Origin: Lactobacillus taiwanensis DSM 21401
GTDB taxonomy: Bacteria; Bacillota; Bacilli; Lactobacillales; Lactobacillaceae
DNA: 64,000 nt
Assembly (NCBI RefSeq): GCF_001436695.1
Contig: NZ_AYZG01000017.1
Location: 29,764-93,763, forward strand
Direction: 5' to 3'
In this document: piece by piece, positions 829 through 6,749 of the stretch
Layout: each line of letters begins with the position of its first letter
How positions within the stretch are numbered: position 1 is the first letter of the stretch
Translations under genes and position numbers: made by a program
The notes under the pieces: model-generated
Databases searched by the model: none
Told to the model about the DNA's origin: nothing
Seen by the model: the letters and a program-made list of their open reading frames with translations, nothing else

Positions 829-1383
829 TTAATCTTCTAGCTCTTTTACAATTGTATCAAGCTCTTTGGCTACTTCTTCCCAGTTGTCATTATTTAATAC
901 ATGAGCCTTTTTAGCTAATTCATCGGATAGATGCAAATCACGCTTAAATTCGTAACTGTTTAATCGCTTATCAATTTCACTCACCTTATCTCCGCGTCCT
1001 AATAATCTTTTTTTCAAAACTGAAAAGTCAGACACAGTCAAATATATAAAATATACTTGTTGTCCTAGCTTTTCCAAATAAGACTTAACACCATCTGTCT
1101 CTATAATTAGAGAAACTAGATCGTTCTTTGTCCAGGCTTTATCTAAGGCTTCTTTACTCGACCCATATTGATATTCTCCATATTTTACATGCTCGAAAAA
1201 ATGGAGCTTTTTAAAACTTTCATCAGTTTCAAAATAATATGATTTTCCGGGAACTTCGCCCTCTCTCATTGGTCTAGTAGTATGAGTTACTACACGAGGA
1301 ATGTTATATTTTTCTGTTAAGTACTTTGAGACTGTGGTCTTTCCTACTCCACTTGGACCAGCAATTATGATAATTCTTTGCAA
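829..1383 (-). CDS. Guanylate-kinase-like P-loop protein (184 aa)
   Basis: Nucleoside-monophosphate kinase fold. The P-loop GPSGVGKTT lies at residues 8-16 and a GMP-binding-type segment with TTRPMREGE follows at about 37-45. The frame is open further upstream, but a TTG at 1383 sits behind a GGGAGAG ribosome binding site and gives MQRIIIIAG, which is where kinases of this family begin; the 40 extra upstream residues have no binding site and overlap the promoter. At 184 aa it is shorter than housekeeping Gmk (about 205 aa), and the region after the P-loop differs from Gmk, so it is probably a paralogue rather than the essential enzyme. It is divergent from the DUF2187-like gene. Confidence 0.75.
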   Translation of the reverse strand: MQRIIIIAGPSGVGKTTVSKYLTEKYNIPRVVTHTTRPMREGEVPGKSYYFETDESFKKLHFFEHVKYGEYQYGSSKEALDKAWTKNDLVSLIIETDGVKSYLEKLGQQVYFIYLTVSDFSVLKKRLLGRGDKVSEIDKRLNSYEFKRDLHLSDELAKKAHVLNNDNWEEVAKELDTIVKELED

Positions 1384-1413
1384 AATATTACTCTCCCGCT
1401 TGAAATCGACTAT

Positions 1414-1442
1414 TATATATAATAGTATTTCACTATTGTAAA
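1414..1442 (-). promoter_or_regulatory. Promoter of the guanylate-kinase-like gene
   Basis: TTTACA (1437-1442) and TATATA (1414-1419) on the minus strand with 17-base spacing. The predicted start of transcription lies just ahead of the GGGAGAG site, which supports the TTG start at 1383. Confidence 0.5.
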
Positions 1443-1473
1443 ACATTTCTATACAGAAAAGGGAGTTTTTTAA

Positions 1474-1764
1474 ATGAAAAAAGCTGATGTAAAAATTGGT
1501 CAAATTTTAGCTGCTACTTCTGAGGAAGAACTTAAGCATCCTTTTCAAGGAAAAGTAGAAAAGATTTATGAAAATTCTGCTTTGCTAGCTATTACTTCAT
1601 ACGATCCAGAAGATGAATCTTCAGTTAATGAATTAAACAACAAAATGGTGATCAACTTTAAGAACTTGAAGAAAGTAAAATCACCTGCACGTGGAAAAAC
1701 TGCCGCTACAAATGATGTAAAAATTTCAAAAGTTCAACCAGATAAAGACAAAAAGTCAAAATAA
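1474..1764 (+). CDS. DUF2187-like small protein (96 aa)
   Basis: A GGGAG site sits 7 bases before the ATG. The N-terminal 65 residues resemble the KOW-like DUF2187/YkvS family: a short beta-rich fold with KVEKIYENSALLAI and a MVINFKNLKKV segment matching the V-N-H/F-K-N ending of that family. The last 25 residues are a Lys-rich charged tail. Function of the family is unknown. It is divergent from the kinase and followed after 49 bases by the membrane protein. Assignment rests on motif resemblance only. Confidence 0.55.
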   Translation: MKKADVKIGQILAATSEEELKHPFQGKVEKIYENSALLAITSYDPEDESSVNELNNKMVINFKNLKKVKSPARGKTAATNDVKISKVQPDKDKKSK

Positions 1765-1813
1765 AAGTTAAGCCTATATAATTTTATTTTTTATAAAGGA
1801 TATCTATCATCAT

Positions 1814-3346
1814 ATGAAAAAAAGGCTTCAAACATTTTTATTTTGGTTTATCTTAATTCAGCCATTTTTAGATATTTATTGGCTATCTAGGCCGCCACTT
1901 CTAAGATTCTCAATTCCTACCATTTTGCGAGTCTTAGGAGTTTTTATTGCCATTATTTTGTTTTTCAGTATTAAAAATAATTGGCAAAGATTCAAAAAAC
2001 AATGGTGGATCATTGCTTATATTGCAATATTAGCCATTTATTCTTTCTGTCACTTAATTTCAGTCAAGAATTTTATCGGCGTAGAACCAACTGGTTTTCA
2101 CTATTCACCTATTGTCGAGATTCTTTATCTTGTACGAGCTTGCTTACCTTTAACAATTTTATACATTACTTCGTATAGTGAATTTAAGCCATACTACTTT
2201 TTTAGAGTTATTCAAGCTATCTCGGGCTTATATTCTTTAACAATAGTTATTTCGAATCTTCTTGTTTTTTCCCTAACTTCATATCACACAAGTGAAGCAA
2301 AGAGAATTAGTGCTAATATCTTTTCCTGGTTTGATCATACGAATTATCCCTTTAACGCTTTGGCTTCTAAAGGCATCTTCTTTCAAGCCAATACTTTATC
2401 GGCTATATTATTTATGATTATGCCAATAATGCTCTATATTCTTTATAAAGAATTCAATCTTCTGAATATAATTTTAGTTAGTGCTCAAGCTTTAGCAATG
2501 TTAATGTTAGGAACAAAAGTTGGTAATTTTGGATTAATCATTAGTTTAGTTGCTTTTCTAATCATTTTCTTATTACATAGTTTGATTTTGAAAAACACAA
2601 AATTCTCATCCAAGTTTCTAATTACCATGATTTGTATTTTAGCTGCCTCTGCTGCTATCTTCCCTTACAGTCCCACTCTCAGACGTTCTTCTCTTGAAAG
2701 TGGAGTAGCTCAAAAGCGTAGTAATCTTGGGAATAAAAACAAGCTTGATCAAGAATTAAACACTGGACTAAAAAGATATCAGGGTCAAAAACAAGAAGAA
2801 TTTTTAAAAGATTTTATCAAAAAGAACTATTGGGTTTATTCATTAAAACATGATCTAGTTTTAGATCACTATTCATATAAAAATGATCCTTACTTTTGGC
2901 TTGAGGTTATGAGAAGACCCGCAAAGGAGCGACTCAATTATCGACATCTTGAACGAGATATCTTAAGTCGCGTCATGAATAATGATAAAAATAAGCTAAA
3001 TAAGCTTTTTGGTATTTCTTTTAGTCGTGAAAACAATATTTCTCCACTTGAGCGCGATTTTCTCGCTCAATATTACTCAATGGGAATACTAGGGGTACTT
3101 CTGCTAGCAGTAATTTACATTATTGTACTTGAATATGGAATCTTTTATTGGCTCGTCAATAAAAAGACAAGAACCTTTTTAAATTCTTCGCTCCTAGCAT
3201 CGGGAGGATTTATTCTCTTTGCTGCTTTTTATGCAGGAAACGTACTTGAATACCTCTCAGCAACTCTAGTGATGGCATTTATTTTAGGATTTTTATTACA
3301 AAATATTCGCTATAGTAGATCTACGAAAGAAATAGTAAGAAAGTGA
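1814..3346 (+). CDS. Polytopic membrane protein, O-antigen ligase/polymerase-like
   Basis: 510 residues with about ten to twelve hydrophobic helices, a Lys/Arg-rich soluble stretch at roughly 290-410, and then two or three more helices. This topology (many helices with one large external loop near the C-terminal third) and the segment around residues 170-200 (WFDHTNYP, then SKGIFFQANTL) resemble Wzy/WaaL O-antigen ligase-type proteins. In a Gram-positive such proteins join or polymerise surface glycans, but there is no glycosyltransferase cluster beside it, so the substrate is unknown. The AAAGGA site is about 13 bases from the ATG, a little long. A bidirectional terminator follows the stop. 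Confidence 0.55.
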   Translation: MKKRLQTFLFWFILIQPFLDIYWLSRPPLLRFSIPTILRVLGVFIAIILFFSIKNNWQRFKKQWWIIAYIAILAIYSFCHLISVKNFIGVEPTGFHYSPIVEILYLVRACLPLTILYITSYSEFKPYYFFRVIQAISGLYSLTIVISNLLVFSLTSYHTSEAKRISANIFSWFDHTNYPFNALASKGIFFQANTLSAILFMIMPIMLYILYKEFNLLNIILVSAQALAMLMLGTKVGNFGLIISLVAFLIIFLLHSLILKNTKFSSKFLITMICILAASAAIFPYSPTLRRSSLESGVAQKRSNLGNKNKLDQELNTGLKRYQGQKQEEFLKDFIKKNYWVYSLKHDLVLDHYSYKNDPYFWLEVMRRPAKERLNYRHLERDILSRVMNNDKNKLNKLFGISFSRENNISPLERDFLAQYYSMGILGVLLLAVIYIIVLEYGIFYWLVNKKTRTFLNSSLLASGGFILFAAFYAGNVLEYLSATLVMAFILGFLLQNIRYSRSTKEIVRK

Positions 3347-3411: not shown

Positions 3412-4038
3412 TTACTTTAATTCTCTAACAAAAGTACGATCTGGTACTCTAATCAAATAATATTTTGCTGCAGTCTTTCCTGCATGCATTCTTAAACCAT
3501 TGTACCAATTCTTTTTATAGGTTGCGGTATAAGTAGCCACATAAGCATTTTGATAACGTCCATCAGCTTGTCTTAATTGCTTATCGGAATAAGGAATTGC
3601 TGCTGCTTGGACTGACATCGGATTCTTTCCATCAGAAATAGTCGCATAGGTGCTGCTAACTGTTACTCTATTTCCATTACTATAAAAAGTATAAGTCTGA
3701 ATTGGAGCTTTCTTATTATCGGATCTAGCAGTAACATAATATGAGCGTTTATTACCAGCCGTTAAAATCAACGGTTGGTAGTCCACTCTACTAGATAGAA
3801 CTTGTTTATTCTCTAAATTTGGATTGTAAAATAAAGTGATGCTAAACATATAGATCGCACCGCATAATAGAATTAAAACTTCTAAAATATCTAGTAAAGT
3901 TGTTTTCCATTCAAAACGCTTACGGTCTTTTACAATCATCATTAAGTGACGTTTACGAATATTCTGTACAATAAAGATTAAATATAAAACAAGTATTAAC
4001 CATGCCAAAATACCTAAAATGTTCCATCCAAGTGTCAT
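3412..4038 (-). CDS. Two-helix membrane protein with external C-terminal domain (possible LVIS_2131 family)
   Basis: 208 residues. Transmembrane helices at about 5-27 and 50-70 are joined by a basic cytoplasmic loop (IRKRHLMMIVKDRKRFEW). Residues 75-208 form a beta-rich, polar, presumably extracytoplasmic domain with many Tyr/Thr and the segment YVATYTATYKKNWYNGLR. A GGAGGCTCC site precedes the ATG. I recall similar lactobacillar proteins labelled LVIS_2131 family, function unknown; that name is tentative. It is monocistronic and divergent from the NrdI-NrdF fusion. Confidence 0.5.
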   Translation of the reverse strand: MTLGWNILGILAWLILVLYLIFIVQNIRKRHLMMIVKDRKRFEWKTTLLDILEVLILLCGAIYMFSITLFYNPNLENKQVLSSRVDYQPLILTAGNKRSYYVTARSDNKKAPIQTYTFYSNGNRVTVSSTYATISDGKNPMSVQAAAIPYSDKQLRQADGRYQNAYVATYTATYKKNWYNGLRMHAGKTAAKYYLIRVPDRTFVRELK

Positions 4039-4107: not shown

Positions 4108-4136
4108 TTGACTTTATTGCAAAAAGTCGCGACAAT
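4108..4136 (+). promoter_or_regulatory. Possible promoter with GTCGCGAC palindrome
   Basis: TTGACT (4108-4113) and GACAAT (4131-4136) with 17-base spacing. An 8-base perfect palindrome GTCGCGAC (4126-4133) overlaps the -10 element and stands out in A+T-rich DNA, so it could be an operator. No NrdR-type box is seen. Confidence 0.3.
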
Positions 4137-4181: not shown

Positions 4182-5579
4182 ATGGTAAAAATAGCTTTTT
4201 ATACAATTACAGGACAAACGCAACGATTCATAAATAAAACGGGTCTTGATGCACATCGAATTGAAGATGCTCATCCTCAATATCAAATGAATGATAAATA
4301 CATTTTGATTTTACCTTCGTATCAAGATTTTATGATGGATTCCGTTGTTGATTTTTTAACATATAAAGATAATAAAGAGAATCTTCTAGGATTAATTGGA
4401 TGCGGCAATCGTAACTTTAATGATCTTTTTGCTCAAACAGCCAAAAAAATCTCCGTTACATTACATGTACCAATCCTCTATTTACTTGAACTAAGTGGCA
4501 ATTCAGCCGACGTCAAAAACGTTCGCCAAATTGTTAAAGAAGCTTGCAAAGAAGAGCACGGCACACAAAAAGATCTCCCAATTCAAAATCCATCTCTTAG
4601 CAATATTAATTTCTTAAGGGACTTCAGGCAAAAAATGAATAAAAAAACTTATTACAAAGCAAGTAACTGGAATGCCGTTGAAGATCAAGTAGATCGTGCT
4701 GCTTGGGCGAGACTAAACGATATTGTTTACGAACCTCGTCGTGTTCCAATTTATAAAGATCAAGATGAATTTTTTCATCTCCCAAAAAACGAACAAACTA
4801 TGCTTCTTCATAGTTTCGTCTCTTTAACTCTTTCCTCTACTCTTCAAATGAAAGTGGCACTATCAAAAATTAAAGAAGATGCCGAGAATTCTGATGAAGA
4901 AGCAGCTGTATATAATGCATTGCAATATTTAGAATCAATTAATAATAAGGCTTATGGTCATGCTTTAAATGTATTCGCTAGCAAAGAAGAGCAAAATGAA
5001 TCCTATGAATGGGTACATAATAATCCATACTTACAAAAGAAAATGAAGCTTTTAAATACAGTTTATCAAGCAGAAAACTCTATCCATAAAAAAGCTGCGC
5101 ATGTTTTTATTTCTACTGGCTTATACCATTCTTCTTTTTTTGGTCCACTTTATTTATTCGGTCAGCACAAATTACCACGAACAGCCGAATTAATTAAGTA
5201 CGCCCTTCGAATTACAGCTTTAAACGGAATTTATACAGGAATAAAATTTCGCCGTGACTTTTTTAAATTGTCTAAAGAAGAACAAGATACTGTACATAAC
5301 TGGGTATCCGATTTATGTGACAAATTATACGATAATGAACTCAATCATATAAAACTTCTCTATCATCATACCGGCCTAGAAGATAAAGTAGAACATTACA
5401 TCCGCTATACCTTAAATAAGGCACTAATGAACTTAGGACAAGAACCAAAATATCCTGAAAATATTGAAATTCTAGATCCTATTCTTATAACAGGTATAAT
5501 GGATAGTGCAATGATTGAGGATTTCTTCTTTTACACAAACGCGCATCCCATTCTTAAAATGCGTGAAATAAAAAAATAA
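4182..5579 (+). CDS. NrdI-NrdF fusion protein with degenerate metal site
   Basis: 465 residues made of two ribonucleotide-reductase accessory modules. Residues 1-125 match the flavodoxin NrdI: FMN-loop TGQTQRF (10-16), GCGNRNFNDLF (73-83) and the LELSG ending (102-106). Residues 160-440 match NrdF, the class Ib radical-generating subunit: WNAVEDQVDRAAW, LTLSSTLQ, YLESINNKAY, NPYLQKKM, LIKYALR, KALMNLG. In E. coli NrdF the ligands are D67, E98, H101, E158, E192 and H195. Here the aligned residues are S219, E251, N254, S311, T345 and N348, so only E251 remains; the radical Tyr105 equivalent, Y258, is kept. The acidic-aromatic NrdE-binding tail is absent. There is no nrdE or nrdH nearby, and the ribosome binding site (TTAGG) is weak. 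Likely a repurposed or pseudo-reductase subunit; catalysis is not supported. Confidence 0.85.
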   Translation: MVKIAFYTITGQTQRFINKTGLDAHRIEDAHPQYQMNDKYILILPSYQDFMMDSVVDFLTYKDNKENLLGLIGCGNRNFNDLFAQTAKKISVTLHVPILYLLELSGNSADVKNVRQIVKEACKEEHGTQKDLPIQNPSLSNINFLRDFRQKMNKKTYYKASNWNAVEDQVDRAAWARLNDIVYEPRRVPIYKDQDEFFHLPKNEQTMLLHSFVSLTLSSTLQMKVALSKIKEDAENSDEEAAVYNALQYLESINNKAYGHALNVFASKEEQNESYEWVHNNPYLQKKMKLLNTVYQAENSIHKKAAHVFISTGLYHSSFFGPLYLFGQHKLPRTAELIKYALRITALNGIYTGIKFRRDFFKLSKEEQDTVHNWVSDLCDKLYDNELNHIKLLYHHTGLEDKVEHYIRYTLNKALMNLGQEPKYPENIEILDPILITGIMDSAMIEDFFFYTNAHPILKMREIKK

Positions 5580-5608
5580 GGAGTTGAAACTCAACTCCTT
5601 ATTTTTTT
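5571..5608. terminator. Strong bidirectional terminator
   Basis: A near-perfect stem (AAATAAGGAGTTGA paired across a three-base loop AAC) flanked by A- and T-runs between two convergent genes. It overlaps both stop regions. Confidence 0.9.
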
Positions 5609-6087
5609 GCTTTCTTAGTTTTGGTTTCAGATTTTTGATAGTTTCGAATAACTTCGATTTTTTCTTCAATCGCCTGAACTAACAATTGACTATACTTATC
5701 TGGATCGGCAATTATTTCATCACTTGAGCCTAAAATATCAATTCTAAAATGGGAAACATTTACATATTCAGAAATAGTTTCAAAATAGATATTTACTTCA
5801 TATTCATCTTCATCATTACAGAAATTGCTAATTTTCTTATAGTTTGCAAATGGAAGATTAATGATATTACTTTCAAGTGCAAAAGTCATTGGTCTTCTTC
5901 CACTAATTGCTAATTGAGTTTGAATTAGTGAATCGTGCTTAAAAGCTTGAACAGCTTCACTAATCATTTTGCTTGCAATATTTCTTAATTTTGTTTTAGT
6001 TATTTCGCTATATTTGAGAGTTTCAAGATCTTGAAGATAATCTTGTTCTTCAATTTTTTTAGTTATTTCTTCTTGTTTAATTTTCAC
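5599..6087 (-). CDS. Hypothetical cytoplasmic protein (162 aa)
   Basis: Not recognised. The start is a GTG at 6087 behind AAGGGA. The protein is soluble and acidic in the middle, with a Lys-rich end (SETKTKKAKK) and helical charged N- and C-terminal segments around a beta-rich core (EYEVNIYFETISEYVNVSHFR split by charged turns). No signal peptide, helices or catalytic motif is visible. It stands alone, convergent to the NrdI-NrdF fusion and downstream of mazF by about 80 bases. Codon use looks like the neighbours. Confidence 0.55.
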   Translation of the reverse strand: MKIKQEEITKKIEEQDYLQDLETLKYSEITKTKLRNIASKMISEAVQAFKHDSLIQTQLAISGRRPMTFALESNIINLPFANYKKISNFCNDEDEYEVNIYFETISEYVNVSHFRIDILGSSDEIIADPDKYSQLLVQAIEEKIEVIRNYQKSETKTKKAKK

Positions 6088-6169: not shown

Positions 6170-6511
6170 CTAATCAAATTGCAACGCAAAACTAAGTAAT
6201 TCCATTACTTTAAGCATATCTTCAGGACGCAAATGATCAGCGGGCTTTTCATCAAGCAAACGCATCCTTGAAAAAGTTTGAATTTGAGCTGCATTTACAC
6301 GACCATGAATATGATATCCGAACAAGTCTAAGTAGGTAGGGAAATGATTGCCGTGGGATGTAATTGGACAAACCATTAGATAATTAGTCTTTTCATTATA
6401 TGAATTAGACGATACTACTACAGCAGGATGTTTTCCCTTCATTTCTTGTCCAACTGATGGTGAGAAGTCCGCCCACACAATATCTCCTTGTTTAAATTTA
6501 TTCTTCGGCAT
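6170..6511 (-). CDS. mazF: MazF/PemK-family toxin (endoribonuclease)
   Basis: 113 residues. Residues 1-40 contain the MazF/PemK core: KFKQGDIVWADFSPSVGQEMKGKHPAVVVS, split here by the conserved glycine and proline turns that build the RNA-binding groove, followed by VCPITS (the conserved Thr/Ser region). An upstream ATG exists in the frame, but the start at 6511 lies inside the 3' end of the antitoxin gene with a 14-base overlap, the usual coupled arrangement. Members cleave mRNA at short single-stranded sequences and are held inactive by the upstream antitoxin. The C-terminal half (RMRLLDEKPADHL) also fits the family. Confidence 0.85.
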   Translation of the reverse strand: MPKNKFKQGDIVWADFSPSVGQEMKGKHPAVVVSSNSYNEKTNYLMVCPITSHGNHFPTYLDLFGYHIHGRVNAAQIQTFSRMRLLDEKPADHLRPEDMLKVMELLSFALQFD

Positions 6512-6749
6512 GACGTAATTCCTCCATAGCCATATTTTCCCAAGCTTCCCTTTCTGGTCCTGGTACATCTTCAAATTTAGCATCGGAGGTATAAGGATTA
6601 GAAATTTTCGGTATTAAGATCAAACTTCCATCAGACTTCTGATGAATTGCATACTCAGTACCCACTTCTACTTTAAAAGAAGCAGGTAGTGAAAAGCCAA
6701 CTGAATTACCGACTTTTTGAGTTACAATATGATGAATAGATATTTTCAT
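6498..6749 (-). CDS. mazE: MazE-family antitoxin (AbrB-like swapped-hairpin)
   Basis: 83 residues. Residues 8-45 are a MazE/AbrB DNA-binding fold (VTQKVGNSVGFSLPASF, then GTEYAIHQ), and the acidic C-terminal tail (FEDVPGPEREAWENMA, EELRHAEE) is the usual toxin-wrapping segment. It begins with ATG behind TGAGGT and overlaps mazF by 14 bases. Antitoxins of this type repress their own promoter as a complex with the toxin. The promoter assigned here lies inside the terminator of the upstream RNA gene. Confidence 0.85.
   Translation of the reverse strand: MKISIHHIVTQKVGNSVGFSLPASFKVEVGTEYAIHQKSDGSLILIPKISNPYTSDAKFEDVPGPEREAWENMAMEELRHAEE

Follow-up and report, generated by a model that had tools for sequence, protein, structure and literature searches.

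To our knowledge, the flavodoxin NrdI is known only as an activator of class Ib and class Ie ribonucleotide reductase (RNR), and we know of no earlier case in which an NrdI–R2 pair is used outside ribonucleotide reduction. In these classes, NrdI is proposed to supply the cavity of R2 with a reduced oxygen species by way of a channel (PMC9462851, PMC8463856, PMC11846895). Four side chains, named in B. cereus numbering in the source, line this route from NrdI to the metal (PMC9462851); their conversion to E. coli numbers was made in the present analysis. In class Ie, NrdI is reported to be needed for the formation of DOPA on the metal-free R2e (PMC11846895). Here, we describe an nrdI–nrdF pair from Lactobacillus for which no description was found in the open literature searched, subscription papers lying outside that scope, and whose features suggest that it has been recycled for a different job.

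The pair was recognized in a 64,000-nucleotide stretch of the Lactobacillus taiwanensis DSM 21401 genome (contig NZ_AYZG01000017.1), hereafter the window, as a single open reading frame (ORF) at 4182–5579 on the forward strand that encodes 465 amino acids. The original prediction that this ORF joins an NrdI to an NrdF holds, with both Pfam domains above their cut-offs: the NrdI flavodoxin (PF07972, residues 4–116, 110.6 bits, cut-off 27) and Ribonuc_red_sm (PF00268, residues 161–426, 155.4 bits, cut-off 33.6). The NrdI domain occupies residues 1–125 (4182–4556, forward strand) and also exceeds the TIGR00333 cut-off (91.6 bits against 74.65). The NrdF-like domain, residues 152–465 plus stop (4635–5579, forward strand), is referred to as NrdF', as is its family, and residue numbers such as D67 are those of E. 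coli NrdF. The predicted structure of the whole ORF has a mean pLDDT of 76.9, with block means of 78–98 across residues 191–430 and segments 77–84, 125–166, and 440–465 below 50. Its nine best structure matches are all NrdF (Z 38.7–39.2, rmsd 1.1–1.7, 268–275 residues). Superposition on E. coli NrdF agrees with this assignment, residues 165–441 of the model matching residues 13–288 of 3n37 with Z 38.8 and rmsd 1.7 over 275 residues; this fold comparison is one of residue ranges and not of residue pairs, and the matched ranges are consistent with the ligand register given below. Against TIGR04171 (cut-off 355), the L. taiwanensis protein scores 241.2 and four other NrdF' score 197–260, compared with 490–498 for canonical relatives (4/4 tested). 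NF007183 (cut-off 320), which one of the four other NrdF' tested passes, takes the L. taiwanensis protein (372.6) and canonical NrdFs (410–414) alike; the protein would therefore be labelled RNR subunit beta, and such labelling would wrongly credit the species with aerobic dNTP synthesis.

Four phmmer alignments to solved NrdFs place S219 at D67, E251 at E98, N254 at H101, Y258 at Y105, S311 at E158, T345 at E192, and N348 at H195. This register bears out the claim that five of the six class Ib ligands (D67, E98, H101, E158, E192, and H195) have been replaced, one of six being present, with E251 and the radical tyrosine Y258 kept. The replacement extends beyond L. taiwanensis. Residue counts were made over 29 aligned NrdF' rows, which include L. 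taiwanensis, the truncated sequence L023, and near copies (L004 of L. taiwanensis; L009 and L010 of each other) and omit the remnant in G005; the canonical comparison comprises 14 NrdFs from other genera of the Lactobacillaceae, the 25 order-level NrdFs of the tree described below standing outside this ligand-column reading. Homologues with intact ligands, next to which the L. taiwanensis protein might look like a damaged copy, were not found: the full set is present in 0/29 aligned family rows and in 14/14 canonical NrdFs, and D67, H101, E192, and H195 are each kept in no NrdF' row. On the forward strand, S219 (4836–4838) is Ser in 29/29 family rows and Asp in 14/14 canonical ones, while E251 (4932–4934) and Y258 (4953–4955) are invariant in the family. 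N254 and N255 (4941–4946) stand at H101, where Ala (15) and Asn (14) share the 29 rows, and at A102, where a new Asn is found in all of them. S311 (5112–5114), at E158, is one of 12 Ser, alongside 15 Glu and two Asn. Y315 and H316 (5124–5129) form a new Tyr-His, invariant in 29/29, at F162 and the channel tyrosine Y163, both unchanged in 14/14 canonical NrdFs. I344 and T345 (5211–5216) lie at D191, a radical transfer residue, and at E192, which is Thr in 28 rows and Ser in one; N348 (5223–5225), at H195, is Asn in 19, Ser in nine, and Gly in one.

Positions 101 and 158 covary, Ala occurring with Glu in 15 rows and Asn with Ser or Asn in 14, and this joint change is one or a few events on the tree. 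A further 17 columns, in addition to D67S, are fixed within each group but carry different residues in the 29 NrdF' and the 14 canonical sequences; A102N, F162Y, and Y163H are among them. The canonical rows share 214 invariant columns, of which only 41 are conserved in at least 90% of NrdF'; single residue losses therefore weigh less than they appear to. Read from the alignment, the loss of ligands is not accidental. The class Ie signature is likewise absent: where V/P/K or Q/S/K would stand at positions 98, 158, and 192 (the latter residues in what we take to be this site order), NrdF' has Glu, then Glu, Ser, or Asn, then Thr or Ser. With no Lys at 192, and with D67 and both ligand His residues replaced in 29/29, the earlier view that this is not a metal-free class Ie subunit is upheld.

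The channel from NrdI is only half kept, with two of its four side chains. K413 and N417 (5418–5432, forward strand) stand at the channel-entrance residues K260 and N264, which are kept in 28/29 and 27/29 rows and are among the 41 conserved columns. Of the other two positions, Y163 is His in 29/29, and the S159 position is Thr in 18, Met in eight, Ser in two, and Ile in one, Thr also being the residue in 14/14 canonical NrdFs. The radical exit is gone. D191 is kept in 0/29 rows and the tail Tyr in 0/28 rows that reach the C-terminus, the truncated L023 counting as a gap. From the DFF motif to the C-terminal end there are 18–19 residues in two NrdF' rows against 34 in one canonical row, and the tail of the L. 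taiwanensis protein is indeed shortened, in agreement with the predicted lack of an NrdE-binding tail. The predicted change of W31 to Tyr is true of this protein (Y183) and is limited to certain clades, the column holding Trp in 16 and Tyr in 13 of 29 rows. Judged by these residues, NrdF' would be an R2 of neither class Ib nor class Ie, and its role would not be ordinary ribonucleotide reduction.

NrdI is 46–58% identical to the NrdIs of ten canonical relatives, and its TGQT and GNRNF residues are invariant across 19 NrdI rows. A structure search with its model retrieves solved NrdIs (best E 6e-12), and the top 31 Foldseek rows are NrdI without exception. A C-terminal extension (residues 126–149; 4557–4628, forward strand) ends in NINFLRDFR, a motif found in 18 of 19 family NrdIs, with L099, whose tail is divergent, counted as the miss; the NrdIs of the ten canonical relatives are 122–133 amino acids long. 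An origin of this tail as an NrdE remnant found no support: when four tails were compared with three NrdEs, between 15 and 197 of 200 shuffled sequences scored no lower. The NrdI loop YQDFMMDS was also considered as a family-specific feature and rejected: most canonical relatives read have similar YDD/YED-MMD-like loops, and the loop is therefore regarded as inherited.

The fusion of the two genes is trivial, resting on one base in one assembly, and is not a family trait. Where nrdI and nrdF overlap, L. taiwanensis has a run of six A (4630–4635, forward strand). The near-identical metagenome-assembled genome (MAG) G070, which agrees with L. taiwanensis at 1490 of 1501 positions, has seven, and because of this extra A it holds two ORFs; the shorter run fuses both frames. 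In seven other near relatives the overlap reads CAGAAAAATG, or AGGCAGAAAAATG in a second rendering, without a long A-run. The frames are joined in one of 30 bearing genomes. A functional design behind the fusion is accordingly rejected; the frames are separate in 28/28 other bearing genomes having both genes. The six-A slip in the L. taiwanensis assembly may be biological or a sequencing error.

The pair is present in 30 of 75 Lactobacillus genomes, one of which (G005) holds a remnant only, and the scans made (of the family, of the order, and of species genomes by pattern) returned none from beyond the genus. Among 397 family and 98 order genomes, each set sampled from a larger group, NrdF' matches have E values of 1e-133 or lower, against 5.9e-98 or higher for the best match in every other genome. 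When two peptide patterns were searched across 84,980 species genomes, 19 loci were recovered, each with a Lactobacillus title; family members without the patterns are missed by this search. All pair loci compared occupy one fixed slot between two genes that are not part of the pair, c1 (3412–4038, reverse strand; LVIS_2131 family, NF040508, 285 bits) and c5 (5599–6087, reverse strand; a 162-amino-acid protein), each in 69 of 75 genus genomes. The latter has no Pfam or NCBIfam match and occurs in 60/60 good genus genomes, which marks it as a conserved core gene. The two flanks adjoin in 38 pair-less genomes (7 of 45 without usable flanks being left out), with gaps of up to 237 bp in 31 and of 486–4042 bp in seven, and tblastn found no nrdI or nrdF' remnant in any of these 38.

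Presence of the pair follows clades on a tree of c1 and c5, a rough guide built from two small proteins with a midpoint root. In the NrdF tree, 28 NrdF' (the truncated L023 left out) fall on one side of a branch of length 3.11 with support of 100/100, opposite 39 other NrdFs and two class Ie NrdFs, on a midpoint root with long branches. A mobile origin was rejected: tblastn against plasmids (441 records, of which 22 labelled Lactobacillus were left out of closer inspection) and phages (389) gave only matches below 60% identity, the six listed for each set being at 35–36%. A candidate promoter, TTGACT-N17-GACAAT (4108–4136, forward strand), lies 45 nucleotides before the NrdI start. The corresponding pattern of a TTG-type hexamer, 17 bases, and an A..T hexamer, which was defined after viewing the alignment and without a shuffle control, occurs in 18 of 19 family loci, 31–47 nucleotides ahead of nrdI. 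The best candidate NrdR boxes upstream of nrdI agree with the consensus at 10–12 of 16 positions, in a comparison without a control. Across 30 neighborhoods compared, in which the L. taiwanensis locus is counted twice, a guanylate-kinase-like gene and an O-antigen-ligase-like membrane protein (829–3346) stand beside the slot in 29, and a MazF/PemK-type gene with an overlapping partner of 83 amino acids (6170–6749) occurs in nine.

NrdI matches with E values below 1e-29 were found in 16 genomes outside the genus, among 71 family genomes scanned. In the regions of the 11 best of these 16 relatives, the order nrdI–nrdE–nrdF is seen in ten; in the eleventh, NrdI is masked by an overlapping ORF in gene calling. 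Pfam identifies the gene preceding nrdI as a glutaredoxin in the one relative tested, and this gene looks alike in the nine regions read. From this gene order and the preceding glutaredoxin, the pair is read as that operon minus nrdH and nrdE, with an nrdHIEF-type operon as its probable source.

The genome of L. taiwanensis (52 contigs, 99.97% complete) contains one R2 and one NrdD, the latter beside a radical-SAM protein read as NrdG, and no match to NrdE (PF02867) or NrdJ. Strong NrdE matches occur in 2 of 75 genus genomes, and 28 of the 30 bearing genomes have no NrdE match. L. kitasatonis (G029) and L. kefiranofaciens (G027) hold, besides NrdF', a separate NrdI match, an NrdE, and an NrdF with V/P/K class Ie residues; these class Ie-signature NrdFs (L051:7062–8087 and L052:7052–8074) lie on the same contig as NrdE. 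Weak PF02867 matches were rejected as NrdE. One of them, read out and scanned, proved to be class II NrdJ (PF21995, PF17975), and NrdJ was therefore searched for separately, yielding 32 matches of which one (G011) is a 68-residue fragment. The bearing genomes comprise 13 with NrdD only, 11 with NrdD and NrdJ, two with NrdD, NrdJ, and NrdE, one with NrdJ only, and three without any RNR class searched (G039, L. rodentium, and G044, both 99% complete, and G071, 71%). Across the genus, 13 of 58 genomes at a completeness of at least 95% match neither NrdE, NrdJ, nor NrdD, and many species may therefore rely on deoxynucleoside salvage.

Median dN/dS is 0.066 for nrdI (39/231 pairs usable, broken nrdI genes and L099 left out) and 0.068 for nrdF' (35/276), over pairs limited to dS of 0.05–1.5 and mostly from close clades; both genes are under purifying selection. 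Three genomes (G010, G023, and G034) have a broken nrdI next to an open nrdF', G072 has a broken nrdF', and G005 holds a fragment only. Such copies imply that the pair is dispensable and that NrdF' may not always need NrdI. In the region of nrdI codon 66 (loci L005 and L019), G023 (L. johnsonii ATCC 33200) and G010 are each one base short in the same A-rich stretch, a recurrent slip site that perhaps reflects phase variation or decay.

The loss of ligands and radical exit, together with the lack of an NrdE match in 28/30 bearing genomes, supports the predicted change of role away from ordinary ribonucleotide reduction. The reading that we favor, tentatively and at somewhat short of even confidence, is an NrdI-fed module that works independently of RNR and whose chemistry ends inside NrdF'. 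An ancestral class Ib nrdH–nrdI–nrdE–nrdF operon would have lost nrdH and nrdE in Lactobacillus, with nrdI kept beside nrdF; NrdF would then have lost both its metal site and its path to NrdE, and been re-tooled as NrdF'. NrdI presumably still binds FMN and docks on NrdF', and may pass superoxide or hydroperoxyl, by way of the entrance at K260 and N264, into the former metal cavity, where the oxidant would meet a metal-free pocket of E98, N102, Y105, Y162, H163, and T192. With D191, the tail Tyr, and the NrdE-binding tail lost, the chemistry would stay inside NrdF', and the simplest mechanism would have the oxidant spent there on a tyrosine, or in scavenging or sensing. The most likely output, in an aerotolerant lactobacillus, would be a DOPA-like oxidation of Y258 and/or Y315, of the kind that NrdI brings about in class Ie, or else the consumption or sensing of oxygen and superoxide. 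It is possible, if rather unlikely, that NrdF' is more specifically a metal-free oxidase of the R2 fold, in which superoxide from NrdI and the E/N/Y/Y/H pocket make a quinone or radical cofactor of Y258 or Y315 that serves catalysis by NrdF' itself or defense against oxygen.

It is also conceivable, though we consider it doubtful, that NrdF' performs no chemistry and is a pseudoenzyme, signaling the redox state as a scaffold or regulator that is bound either to reduced NrdI or, by way of the new NrdI tail, to another partner. The disappearance of four of six ligands in all 29 rows and of a fifth in 14 would fit such a role, as would the conservation of the new tail in 18 of 19 NrdIs and the higher mean column identity of NrdI (78% of 11 rows, against 61% of 20 for NrdF', in different row sets); however, E98, N102, Y105, Y162, and H163 are the same in 29/29, which exceeds what a pure scaffold would need.

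An accessory or protective role for another RNR (NrdD of class III or NrdJ of class II), such as shielding the glycyl radical enzyme against oxygen, is improbable. It draws on the presence of NrdD in 26 of 30 bearing genomes as compared with 14 of the 45 without the pair (Fisher p 1.8e-6, uncorrected for lineage). But the two 99% complete bearing genomes without any RNR class searched, and the one with NrdJ only, speak against it, as do the location of NrdD on another contig of the L. taiwanensis draft and the lack of an association between NrdJ and the pair across the 75 genomes (p 0.64).

Quite unlikely, too, is a different metal site, with a single metal on E98 and the new H163, joined by E158 where present. 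E98 and H163 are found in all rows and E158 is kept in 15 of 29, but E158 is Ser or Asn in the other 14, and D67, H101, E192, and H195 are replaced throughout. Five of the 30 bearing genomes have broken or remnant copies, as would suit a relic slowly decaying after the loss of NrdE; such a relic we hold to be very unlikely in view of a dN/dS of about 0.07, mostly from the johnsonii-like clade in which five ligands are lost, and of 45 invariant columns among 20 NrdF'. That NrdF' is still the R2 subunit of a class Ib- or Ie-like RNR using NrdE from elsewhere, as homology and the NCBI label of RNR subunit beta might suggest, is hardly credible with no NrdE match in 28/30 genomes, D191 lost in 29/29, and the tail Tyr lost in 28/28.

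An NrdI and a re-tooled NrdF maintained under strong selection in a lineage without NrdE, including two near-complete genomes without an RNR match, offer a direct test of whether an NrdI–R2 module can work alone and of what an R2 cavity does with neither metal nor partner.

Set beside the known systems, NrdF' shares with class Ib NrdF and NrdI (of E. coli, B. cereus, S. sanguinis, and the nrdHIEF operons of the Lactobacillaceae) its fold, an adjacent nrdI, Y105, E98, and K260/N264. Unlike them, it lacks four ligands in 29/29 rows and E158 in 14/29, as well as D191, the tail Tyr, and the tail, and the nrdI–nrdF' pair has no nrdE or nrdH between or beside its genes. With the class Ie R2e proteins (VPK and QSK), NrdF' has in common replaced ligands, an accompanying NrdI, which is needed there for DOPA, and a derivation from class Ib (PMC11846895, PMC8463856). 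The class Ie VPK NrdFs L051 and L052, however, keep D67, H101, and H195, with Lys at 192 and Val at 98, whereas NrdF' has Ser at 67, Ala or Asn at 101, Asn, Ser, or Gly at 195, Thr or Ser at 192, and Glu at 98, and no NrdE. No R2lox match among NCBIfam models was found for the L. taiwanensis protein up to E 1, in a test of sequence alone. R2lox is an R2 fold used outside ribonucleotide reduction, as NrdF' would be, and differs in that it is reported to assemble Mn/Fe and to bind a fatty acid (PMC6399176).
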